Of a stretch of DNA of 64,000 nt, positions 48,953 to 52,329 are shown one piece after another (position 1 is the stretch's first letter; each line of letters opens with the position of its first letter). This DNA comes from Halosegnis marinus (lineage in GTDB: Archaea; Halobacteriota; Halobacteria; Halobacteriales; Haloarculaceae). The notes under the pieces were generated by a model that saw nothing but the letters and a program-made list of their open reading frames with translations, was not told the origin of the DNA and searched no databases. The DNA lies in the NCBI RefSeq assembly GCF_029338355.1, contig NZ_CP119802.1:2294001-2358000 (forward strand), given 5' to 3'. The translations under genes and the position numbers were made by a program.

Positions 48953-50152
48953 ATGACCGACACGGACGCCGCAGTCGTAGGCGGCGGGGCGACCGGGGTC
49001 GCCCTCGCCCGCGACCTCGCCGAGCGCGGGGTCGAGACGACGCTCGTCGAGCGCGACGACCTCGCCGCGGGCGCCAGCGGCGCGATGCACGGCCTGCTCC
49101 ACTCCGGGGCACGCTACGCCGTCGCGGACCCCGAGTCCGCGCGCGCCTGTATCGCCGAGAACCGCGTCGTGCGCGACGTCGCCCCGGACTGCGTCGCGGA
49201 CACGGGCGGCCTGTTCGTCTCGCTGCCCGCGGACCCCGACGACTACCTCGACCGGCTCGAAGCCGCCTGCGCCGATTGCGGCATCGAAACCGAACGGCTG
49301 ACCGGCGCCGAGGCCCGCGAGCGCGAACCGGGACTCTCCCCCGACACCGAGGCCGCGCTCGCCGTCCCCGACGCGACGGTTGACCCGGTTCGGCTGGTCG
49401 CGGCGACGGCGCTGGCGGCCGAGCGCGCCGGCGCCGAGATACGCACGGGGACGGCCGTGACGGACGTACTCGTCGAGGACGGCCGCGCGGTCGGCGTCGA
49501 ACTCGACGGCGGCGAGCGCATCGGGGCCGAGGTCGTCGTCAACGCCGCCGGCGCGTGGGGCGAGCAGGTCGCCGCGCTCGCCGGCGTCCCCCTCGACATG
49601 ACGCCCTCGCGGGGCGCGATGACCGTCGTCGGCGACGCGCTCGTCTCGGGCGTGGTGAACCGCTGTCGGCCGAAGTCCTCGGGCGACATCGTCGTCCCCT
49701 GCGGCGACGCCTGCATCCTCGGGACGACGGACGTCGAGGTCGACGACCCCGACGACTTCGCGGTCGACGACCGGGAGGTGGCGCTGTTGTTCGAGGAGCT
49801 GACGCCCGCGGTGCCGGCGCTCGCCGACGCCGCGGTCGACCACACCTACTGGGGCGTGCGGCCGTTGTACGAACCCGACGCCGACGGCGACTCGGTGGGG
49901 TTCTCGCGGACGTTCTCGCTGCTGGACCACGCCGAGCGCGACGACCGGCCCGGGTTCGTCTCCGTCGTCGGCGGGAAGCTCACCACGCACCGCGCGATGG
50001 CCGAGGCCGCGGCCGACCTCGTCTGCGACCGGCTCGGGGTCGCGGCCGACTGTGTGACCGCCGACGAGCCGCTGCCGGACGCCGACGAGGCGACCGCGCG
50101 CTACGGGCTCTCGGACCTGCTCACGGGTACTCGCCGCGCTTCACGAAGGTAA
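48953..50152 (+). CDS. glpA: FAD-dependent glycerol-3-phosphate dehydrogenase, short GlpA
   Basis: 399 aa. It should oxidise glycerol-3-phosphate to dihydroxyacetone phosphate. The FAD motif VVGGGATGVALARDLAERG is at about residues 8-26, GAMHGLLHSGARYA binds substrate, and WGVRPLYEP and VSVVGGKLTTHRAMAE close the DAO domain. GlpA of E. coli has 542 residues with a C-terminal [2Fe-2S] BFD-like domain; this one stops after the DAO domain, so that domain is missing. No glpB or glpC follows. The last 11 codons overlap the convergent UspA gene and look like antisense of it, so the gene may have been cut off by a deletion. Divergent from glpK. Confidence 0.85.
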   Translation: MTDTDAAVVGGGATGVALARDLAERGVETTLVERDDLAAGASGAMHGLLHSGARYAVADPESARACIAENRVVRDVAPDCVADTGGLFVSLPADPDDYLDRLEAACADCGIETERLTGAEAREREPGLSPDTEAALAVPDATVDPVRLVAATALAAERAGAEIRTGTAVTDVLVEDGRAVGVELDGGERIGAEVVVNAAGAWGEQVAALAGVPLDMTPSRGAMTVVGDALVSGVVNRCRPKSSGDIVVPCGDACILGTTDVEVDDPDDFAVDDREVALLFEELTPAVPALADAAVDHTYWGVRPLYEPDADGDSVGFSRTFSLLDHAERDDRPGFVSVVGGKLTTHRAMAEAAADLVCDRLGVAADCVTADEPLPDADEATARYGLSDLLTGTRRASRR

Positions 50153-50573
50153 CCGGACACGGCGCGTCGAGCAGTATCTCCTGGGCCGTCGAGCCGAAGA
50201 CCGCCTTCCCGGTCGGCGAGCGCCGCCGCCCGCCGACGACGAGCAGGTCGGCGTCCAGCGCCTCGGCCATCGACACGACCTCGGGCGCGCGCTCGCCGAC
50301 CGCGCCGCGGTGGTCGGACTCGATTCCCGCGGCGTCGAACCGCTTCTCCAGGTCGCGAACGGTGCGGTTCCGGCCGGCGACGGCGTCGGGCGACACCTCG
50401 GTGTCGTCGTCGAACTCCAGCCGCTCGACGGTGTCCTCGTAGTCGTCCTCGGCGAACACGTGTCCGAGGACGACGGTCGCGCCCGCCGGTCCCGCGATGT
50501 CCTCCGCCACCTGTGCCAGTCGGTCGCCCGGCGACGACCCGCCGACGGCCACGAGTACGGTTTCGAGCGTCAT
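50121..50573 (-). CDS. Universal stress protein (UspA family)
   Basis: 150 aa Usp fold. The ATP-binding signature is GGRRRSPTGKAVFGSTAQ (G-2x-G-9x-GS), and VLVAVGGSSPGDR replaces the usual VAVDGS at the start. Most members bind ATP or form dimers in stress survival; no role can be fixed. It overlaps the convergent glpA 3' end by 32 bp, which is longer than other overlaps in the window. Confidence 0.86.
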   Translation of the reverse strand: MTLETVLVAVGGSSPGDRLAQVAEDIAGPAGATVVLGHVFAEDDYEDTVERLEFDDDTEVSPDAVAGRNRTVRDLEKRFDAAGIESDHRGAVGERAPEVVSMAEALDADLLVVGGRRRSPTGKAVFGSTAQEILLDAPCPVTFVKRGEYP

Positions 50574-50597: not shown

Positions 50598-50841
50598 CTA
50601 AACTCCTCCCCCGCGGCTCCGCCCGTCGGTCACGGCCGGGAGCAACAGGAGCAGGGCCACGGCCCCGAGGAGGGAGCCGAAGCCGGCGACCCCGGCCCCC
50701 GCTCCAGGCCAGCCGGTGGTCGGGGTCGCGCCGCCCCGCGAGGAGCCACGCCGCGACAGCCGCGAGGACGCCGATGCCGACCGAGGAGACGAGGTCGAGC
50801 CACGGGTCGAAGCCGGAGGGGATGCCGAACTGGAGGAGCAC
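50598..50841 (-). pseudogene. Two-helix membrane protein gene with apparent frameshift
   Basis: From GTG 50841 the minus strand reads about 45 protein-like residues (FGIPSGFDPWLDLV, then helix SSVGIGVLAAVAAWLLAG and RRDPDHRLA) and then turns into Arg/Pro-rich nonsense. The next frame (one base skipped, near 50703-50709) reads AGFGSLLGAVALLLLLPAV, TDGRSRGGGV and a stop at 50598-50600. Together they give a plausible 80-aa protein with two membrane helices. Either a single-base indel has broken it, or there is a sequencing error, or the ribosome shifts frame. No other gene fits this gap. Family unknown. Confidence 0.55.
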
Positions 50842-50891
50842 GCCGGACGCCGGGCCGCCGCCGACGAAAGTCCGTCGGCCGCTTCCGGTGG

Positions 50892-50899
50892 CTTTTATT
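50892..50899 (+). promoter_or_regulatory. TATA box of fumC
   Basis: CTTTTATT lies 24 to 31 nt before the fumC ATG in a G+C-rich setting, which places the transcription start at or next to the ATG, so fumC is probably leaderless. Confidence 0.55.
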
Positions 50900-50922
50900 C
50901 TCGACCACGCGACCCACGGGGT

Positions 50923-52329
50923 ATGAGCGACGAGTTCCGAACCGAGGAGGACAGTCTCGGCGAGATGCAGGTGCCGGCGGACGCCTACTGGGGGGCACAG
51001 ACCCAGCGCGCGGTCGAGAACTTCCCCGTCTCGGGAGTCTCGTTCGGCCGGCGGTTCGTCCGCGCGCTCGGCGTCGTCAAGAAGTCGGCGGCGCGCGCCA
51101 ACAACGACCTCGGCCTGCTGGAGGACGAGCAGGCGGAGGCCATCGCCGCGGCGGCCGACGAGGTCATCGCCGGGGAGCACGACGACCAGTTCCCGGTCGA
51201 CGTGTTCCAGACCGGCTCCGGCACCTCCTCGAACATGAACGCGAACGAGGTCATCGCCAACCGCGCCGCCGAGATACTCGGGAAGGAGATCGGCGACCGC
51301 GTCGTCCACCCGAACGACCACGTCAACTACGGGCAGTCGTCGAACGACGTCATCCCGACCGCGATGCACGTCGCCGCGCTCGAAGCCGCCGTGAAGGACG
51401 TGCTTCCGGGGCTGGAGACGCTCGCCGAGGCGCTCGCGGACAAGGAGGCCGAGTTCGACGACGCCGTCAAGACGGGCCGCACGCACCTGCAGGACGCGAC
51501 GCCCGTGCGACTGGGCCAGGAGTTCGGGGGCTACCGCGTCCAGGTCGAGAAGGGCATCGAGCGCGTCGAGTCGACGCGCGACCGTCTCGGCGAACTCGCG
51601 CTCGGCGGGACCGCGGTCGGCACGGGTCTCAACACCCACCCCGAGTTTCCCGAGCGCGCGGCCGAGTATATCTCCGAGGAGACGGGCCTCGCGTTCCGCG
51701 AGGCCGACAACCACTTCGAGGCGCAGGCGGCCCACGACGCGATGAGCGAGGCCCACGGCGCGCTCCGCGTCGTCGCCGGGTCGCTCAACAAGATCGCCAA
51801 CGACCTGCGGCTGCTCGCCTCCGGCCCGCGCAACGGCCTCGGCGAGATAGAGCAGCCGGAGAACCAGCCCGGCTCTTCCATCATGCCGGGGAAGATCAAC
51901 CCGGTCGTCGCGGAGGCGGTCAACCAGGTCCACAAGCAGGTCGTCGGCAACGACGCCGCGGTCTCCGCGGGCGCGGCGGAGGGACAGATAGACCTGAACC
52001 TCTACAAGCCGGTCATCGCGCACAACTACCTCCAGTCGGCGGAGATGCTCGCCAACGTCGCCGAGGTGTTCGGCGAGCGGTTCGTCGCGAAGCTGGAGGC
52101 CGACCGCGCGCATATGGAGTCGCAGGTCGAGCAGTCCATGGCGCTCGCCACGGCGCTGAACCCGACCATCGGCTACGACAAGGCCTCGAAGGTGGCGAAG
52201 AAGGCGCTCGCGGAGGGGAAGACCGTCCGCGAGGTCGTCGTCGCCGAGGGCTACCTCACGGAGGAGGAGGCCGACGAGGTGCTCGACCCCGAGGCGATGA
52301 CCCACCGCGGCATCCTCGGCGACGACTAG
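50923..52329 (+). CDS. fumC: Class II fumarate hydratase
   Basis: 468 aa, fumarase C of the citric-acid cycle, which interconverts fumarate and malate. Signature segments are GSGTSSNMNANEV, HPNDHVNYGQSSNDV, KTGRTHLQDATPV and the active-site loop GSSIMPGKINPV. It is a homotetramer that needs no iron-sulfur cluster. The length is standard. The stop shares CTAG with the convergent lipoprotein gene. Confidence 0.95.
   Translation: MSDEFRTEEDSLGEMQVPADAYWGAQTQRAVENFPVSGVSFGRRFVRALGVVKKSAARANNDLGLLEDEQAEAIAAAADEVIAGEHDDQFPVDVFQTGSGTSSNMNANEVIANRAAEILGKEIGDRVVHPNDHVNYGQSSNDVIPTAMHVAALEAAVKDVLPGLETLAEALADKEAEFDDAVKTGRTHLQDATPVRLGQEFGGYRVQVEKGIERVESTRDRLGELALGGTAVGTGLNTHPEFPERAAEYISEETGLAFREADNHFEAQAAHDAMSEAHGALRVVAGSLNKIANDLRLLASGPRNGLGEIEQPENQPGSSIMPGKINPVVAEAVNQVHKQVVGNDAAVSAGAAEGQIDLNLYKPVIAHNYLQSAEMLANVAEVFGERFVAKLEADRAHMESQVEQSMALATALNPTIGYDKASKVAKKALAEGKTVREVVVAEGYLTEEEADEVLDPEAMTHRGILGDD

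Follow-up and report, generated by a model that had tools for sequence, protein, structure and literature searches.

A small two-helix membrane-protein gene beside fumC in Halosegnis marinus and its apparent frame change, probably a fault of the assembly

Next to a fumC-like gene of Halosegnis marinus, the minus strand reads as a small membrane-protein gene divided between two frames, which raises the question of whether this is a gene at all and, if so, whether the change of frame exists in the organism or in the assembly only. We analyzed a window of 64,000 nucleotides (G000:C1:2294001-2358000) from a genome of 2.8 Mb in two contigs (96.8% complete). The first-pass annotation of this window had described a split two-helix gene and had named a pseudogene, a sequencing error and programmed frameshifting as possible causes without choosing among them.

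The gene extends from a GTG at 50841 to a TAG at 50598 on the minus strand, as judged by translation and codon log-odds, and the span of 50598-50841 given for it earlier is exact. The first frame, read from GTG 50841, encodes VLLQFGIPSGFDPWLDLVSSVGIGVLAAVAAWLLAGRRDPDHRLAW (46 residues) with one membrane helix at 50737-50793 (minus strand; Kyte-Doolittle 19-residue mean 2.22). Past the switch this frame remains open without a stop to 50101 and translates into Arg-rich nonsense. The +1 frame encodes AGAGVAGFGSLLGAVALLLLLPAVTDGRSRGGGV (34 residues), contains the second membrane helix at 50640-50696 (minus strand; Kyte-Doolittle 19-residue mean 2.24) and ends at TAG 50598. The arrangement of one helix per frame, with the second frame ending in a stop, is confirmed by translation, codon score and hydropathy. 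A second lesion, e.g. an internal stop, was not seen in the translation.

Codon log-odds were trained on long ORFs from 504 kb of the same genome. The best reading with one switch scored 32.9 with the switch at 50703, and placements from 50706 to 50691 scored no more than 1.7 log units from this optimum. Together with the list of runs this defines a one-base frame-change interval at 50691-50706 (minus), within which the minus strand carries five consecutive G; the earlier placement of the switch, at 50703-50709, is right within a few bases. The unswitched frames scored -11.0, -22.8 and -66.8. The G+C content at the three codon positions is 0.78/0.50/0.98 in the first part and 0.85/0.62/0.91 in the second, similar to fumC (0.72/0.41/0.96), glpA and uspA. 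By both measures the codon signal goes on in the new frame, as a fault of the assembly would have it. If the locus were not a gene, we would be looking at a chance hydrophobic pair in G+C-rich intergenic sequence. Against this stand the gene-like G+C of both parts and the codon score, which was reached by 0 of 1000 mononucleotide shuffles (mean -23.3).

Downstream of the small gene lies a uspA-like universal stress protein gene (50121-50573, minus; Pfam Usp, E 6.9e-24). The divergent fumC-like gene (50923-52329, plus; FumaraseC_C 90.6 bits) encodes a protein of the class II fumarase/aspartase family, for which the best NCBIfam model, fumC_II, gives 613.7 bits, under its cut-off of 664.75, and which passes the aspartase-named subfamily NF008909 (593.9 vs a cut-off of 510). 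The fumC start common to relatives is ATG 50923. The fumC frame is open further upstream to GTG 50716 (50716-50922, plus), antisense to the small gene, and automatic annotation could extend fumC wrongly to this codon. A putative fumC promoter core is located at 50888-50903 (plus), approximately 20-35 bases before the ATG; GGCTTTT with its flanks occurs at about the same distance at five other loci (L040, L042, L041, L038 and L039), and a shorter CTTTT at L043. A putative uspA promoter element, GTTTAG (50598-50603, minus), overlaps the stop codon of the small gene, and a CTTAACA in L040 and L042 has a similar distance to uspA. Both putative promoter elements, that of fumC and that of uspA, are retained on either side of the extra DNA. 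An inverted repeat noted by eye, GCCGACG-GACTTT-CGTCGGC (50858-50877, minus), lies in the interval that separates the small gene from the fumC promoter.

In three genomes of the same genus (G083, G084 and G085) a uspA relative adjoins fumC and the small gene is absent between the two. G083 and G084 retain the order glpA, uspA, fumC with a uspA-fumC gap of 104 bp vs 349 bp here; in G085 the distance is approximately 138 bp, counting up to the ATG of fumC as it appears in the sequence. G086 has no uspA next to fumC, and fumC was not found in G087 (67% complete). Across the family, fumC was matched in 140 of 146 genomes; 30 of these loci were compared, one of them the window's own, and 110 were left out. 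None of the 29 other loci carried the small gene beside fumC at E < 1 (flank of up to 1500 bases), a result that favors a chance origin of the hydrophobic pair. Judged from these gene orders, the small gene would be either a gain in the window's lineage or a loss in the other genomes. On the far side of uspA, a GlpA-like protein (48953-50152, plus, 399 aa) matches only positions 2-384 of the 530 of TIGR03377, and its gene shares 32 bp with the 3' end of uspA. G083 has a GlpA of comparable shortness that also ends next to uspA, and in G084 the alignment stops there too, so that the short GlpA form seems to be older than the window's genome.

The joined product of both frames matched at least 97 of the 146 family genomes at E ≤ 1; the foreign matches were weak (best listed E 1.1e-4) and no close orthologue was found among them. 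At the level of the order, where 392 genomes out of a larger group were searched, six matched at E ≤ 0.003 including the own genome. The best foreign match of this set (E 1.1e-4) contains an internal stop, so that single-sequence E-values of about 1e-4 prove nothing alone. A contig scan with uspA found no relative; the same scan with the joined product gave, among the matches listed, one bacterial locus, from Rahnella (35% identity). The DNA of the small gene had no match on plasmids. An unbroken close orthologue of approximately 80 aa, the check suggested by the first-pass annotation, thus did not turn up in the 146 family genomes, the 392 order genomes or the contig-scan matches listed. Pfam returned only MHYT for the window protein, below threshold (19.5 bits vs 21), and such weak database scores are also what a chance pair of helices would give.

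More distant relatives were found. From the hits of the joined product in the family 18 loci were read, and 8 were judged by eye to be true homologues: small proteins with a PLQFG(I/V)PGGPEL-like start and two helices in one frame. A profile of these eight matches 128 of the 146 family genomes at E ≤ 0.01, with many of the listed matches spanning only about the first 27 positions; the latter are probably TatA-like proteins, as we presume to call the haloarchaeal proteins that share the PLQFGIPGGPE start. An iterated search of the collected loci yielded 51 distinct one-frame homologue sequences. On the profile of these 51 sequences the joined product scored 20.0 bits, compared with 12.3 for the first frame and 2.2 for the second when each was scored alone. 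A subset of 9 sequences, selected once the similarity had been noticed, gave 27.6 bits (14.3 and 8.1 for the single frames). The joined product thus displays the profile similarity across both helices that marks the PLQFGIPGGPEL two-helix family, whose members are single ORFs, whereas the small gene spans two frames in the sequence as given.

None of 2000 full and none of 2000 hydrophobicity-class shuffles reached these profile scores, and a result above all 4000 shuffles again speaks against chance. In a control with real sequences (29,546 ORF pieces) the joined product ranked 126 on the 51-sequence profile and 106 on the subset. By eye, the 12 rows directly above it were family members or TatA-like pieces for the former and family members for the latter. 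On the 51-sequence profile TatA-like pieces reached up to 26.2 bits, more than the joined product, and an unrelated piece of the window came close with 18.9 bits. The rows listed under the joined product on the subset were, by eye, family pieces, a TatA-like piece (19.9 bits) and an unrelated one (19.1 bits). Profile A2, built without the window, recovered the first half in its own genome at E 0.0047, where it ranked seventh among eight matches; the list for that genome did not contain the second half at E ≤ 1. Of the 13 residues invariant among the eight intact members, the alignment of the window copy retains seven columns (L, Q, G, P, A, W and G); among the residues that it lacks are the invariant E, Y and D from the first helix and its loop. 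As far as such alignments can tell, the window protein is likely a distant relative of the small two-helix haloarchaeal proteins. One-frame homologues, albeit distant ones, cover both halves, and the case that no homologue spans the two frames, which would have counted against a split gene, did not arise. The small gene is more than chance and is probably real; we regard a random origin of the helix pair as very unlikely. An intact paralogue of the family (75 aa; L115, L197) is located in the same genome at G000:C1:1419875-1420084.

Is the frame change then real? We placed 591 coding segments of G083 and G066 on 504 kb of the window's genome, where 218 matched and covered 132 kb. Within these 132 kb two genes were split (three split rows, two of which are one gene). 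The control set 622 segments, from the window's genome and G066, against 520 kb of G083; matches were obtained for 200, and no split gene was found in the 121 kb that they cover. This protein comparison is blind to the small gene itself, which has no close homologue.

The first of the two split genes encodes isochorismate synthase, as its G083 counterpart reaches 358.3 bits with TIGR00543 (cut-off 224.75). Its parts adjoin at 2284354-2284363, and the break is located at C runs of 5 and 6 (G000:C1:2284340-2284400). A whole copy was not found in the genome, given that the two remaining matches are partial and only 31-35% identical; these would fit related chorismate enzymes. The sequence lying between the two C runs translates to FVLP, as it does in G083, and for this reason we read the break as two +1 changes separated by approximately 20 bp. 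BLAST yields a net shift of two only, so that the equal sign of all frame changes is not proven and one change of opposite sign is possible. The second gene, which we take to be methyltransferase-like from its GTGML and NPPF motifs, has no NCBIfam match and breaks at a run of seven C (G000:C1:2379390-2379450). All three broken genes hence break at G/C runs of at least 5 (5 + 6 C, 7 C and 5 G), although only 6.7% of the bases in 504 kb lie within 12 of such a run; the same 504 kb contain 1188 runs of at least 5 and 20 of at least 7. Breaks at homopolymers similar to that of the small gene therefore occur in other, conserved genes of the assembly.

Over all ORFs, a raw frame-split search produced 18 rows. 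Codon-position G+C was examined for 13 pairs, of which the isochorismate synthase pair alone looked coding in both halves; the remaining five rows fall at these same places. A filtered version reported no split in 43 kb and missed isochorismate synthase, its filter being too strict. An intrinsic scan produced 8 candidates in the window's genome and 10 in G083. Candidate 2379437 was kept and candidate 2083345 was rejected, as its first frame simply runs on as a Thr/Pro repeat; the remaining 6, like all 10 from G083, were dismissed on the basis of their printed ends alone. The intrinsic scan missed both the small gene and isochorismate synthase and is therefore a poor control.

Mainly on account of the homopolymer breaks in conserved genes, we consider it probable that the locus is a two-helix gene of approximately 80 residues with distant haloarchaeal kin, in which the frame change is a fault of this one assembly, namely a miscounted G run. 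Of the three causes proposed before, sequencing or assembly error is thus favored, and the others are less likely; the frame split is probably not real biology. Miscounted homopolymers would explain all three breaks at G/C runs by one cause. Three genes are few for such an argument, however, and real slippage mutations also favor homopolymers. A miscount would create the apparent change at about 50706-50691, and in the cell the gene would presumably be read in one frame. Its product would then fold as a hairpin of two helices joined by a short charged loop, putatively an accessory membrane protein, which we take to be dispensable since the relatives examined are without the gene at this place.

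Such a gene could also be a true and recent pseudogene, broken by slippage in the G run before its codon bias had time to decay. G runs commonly mutate by slippage, the loss would cost little given that the gene lacks conservation at this locus (cf. the short gap in G083 and G084), and the genome holds the family paralogue elsewhere. We nevertheless find this reading unlikely, because the small gene carries no second lesion and because a similar break affects the only isochorismate synthase found, an enzyme expected to be necessary for menaquinone.

In programmed +1 frameshifting, ribosomes would change frame at the G run and make the two-helix protein from the sequence as it stands. No stop interrupts the overlap of the two frames, which makes a switch possible. 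Yet there is no stop or very rare first-frame codon at the switch (TGG 10.6, AGC 9.8, GGG 25.8 and GGC 61.1 per 1000) and the RNA fold is ordinary (z = -1.33; 20 of 200 shuffles as stable), i.e. the combination of stall signal and stimulatory structure that marks such sites is missing here. Furthermore, the homologues found, distant relatives rather than orthologues, are in one frame, and with so many runs of at least 5, breaks were seen in only two genes of the 132 kb covered. Some support comes from excerpts of one review, which report an apparent +1 frameshift in the haloarchaeal virus HSTV-2 and some disrupted archaeal genes that proved functional (PMC8211752). The same excerpts mention -1 cases in one archaeal gene, fucA1, and in four haloarchaeal viruses, magnesium chelatase as a suggested archaeal case, and predicted archaeal frameshift pseudogenes of one study at A/T-rich tracts, unlike here (PMC8211752). 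All in all, we consider programmed frameshifting at this locus highly improbable. We give equally little credence to the broader idea that forward frame changes at certain G/C runs are tolerated or exploited by this organism, with all three genes expressed via ribosomal frameshifting. Should it be true, such forward recoding, affecting several cellular genes of an archaeon, would be notable, as the +1 case named in those excerpts is a haloarchaeal virus (PMC8211752).

A miscounted G run is an ordinary finding, and its use is as a warning about the assembly: for split genes in it a base-calling fault should be suspected first. Counts of pseudogenes or of recoding in this genome would mislead, given that the only isochorismate synthase found is similarly broken.

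Among known proteins, PLDc_N (PF13396) is touched only by one homologue, the L008 protein, with a sub-threshold match (18.1 vs 23.3 bits), and the window protein itself has no match to it at E ≤ 1. The TatA-like haloarchaeal proteins, e.g. the piece at G000:C1:608031-608117, have the PLQFGIPGGPE start in common but continue with one helix and a long charged tail, whereas a tail of this kind is absent from the window protein, which has two helices. The closest known set consists of unnamed small haloarchaeal membrane proteins of about 75-92 aa (L014, L036, L022, L019, L008, L009 and L010). The window copy differs from these in its two frames and in lacking GGPEL, the YxDA that follows the first helix and, at the end, Y..(V)RD or GRD. 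It shares with them the LQFGIP start, the first helix, a charged loop ending in A-W or LW and a second helix with Gly, and both halves align.
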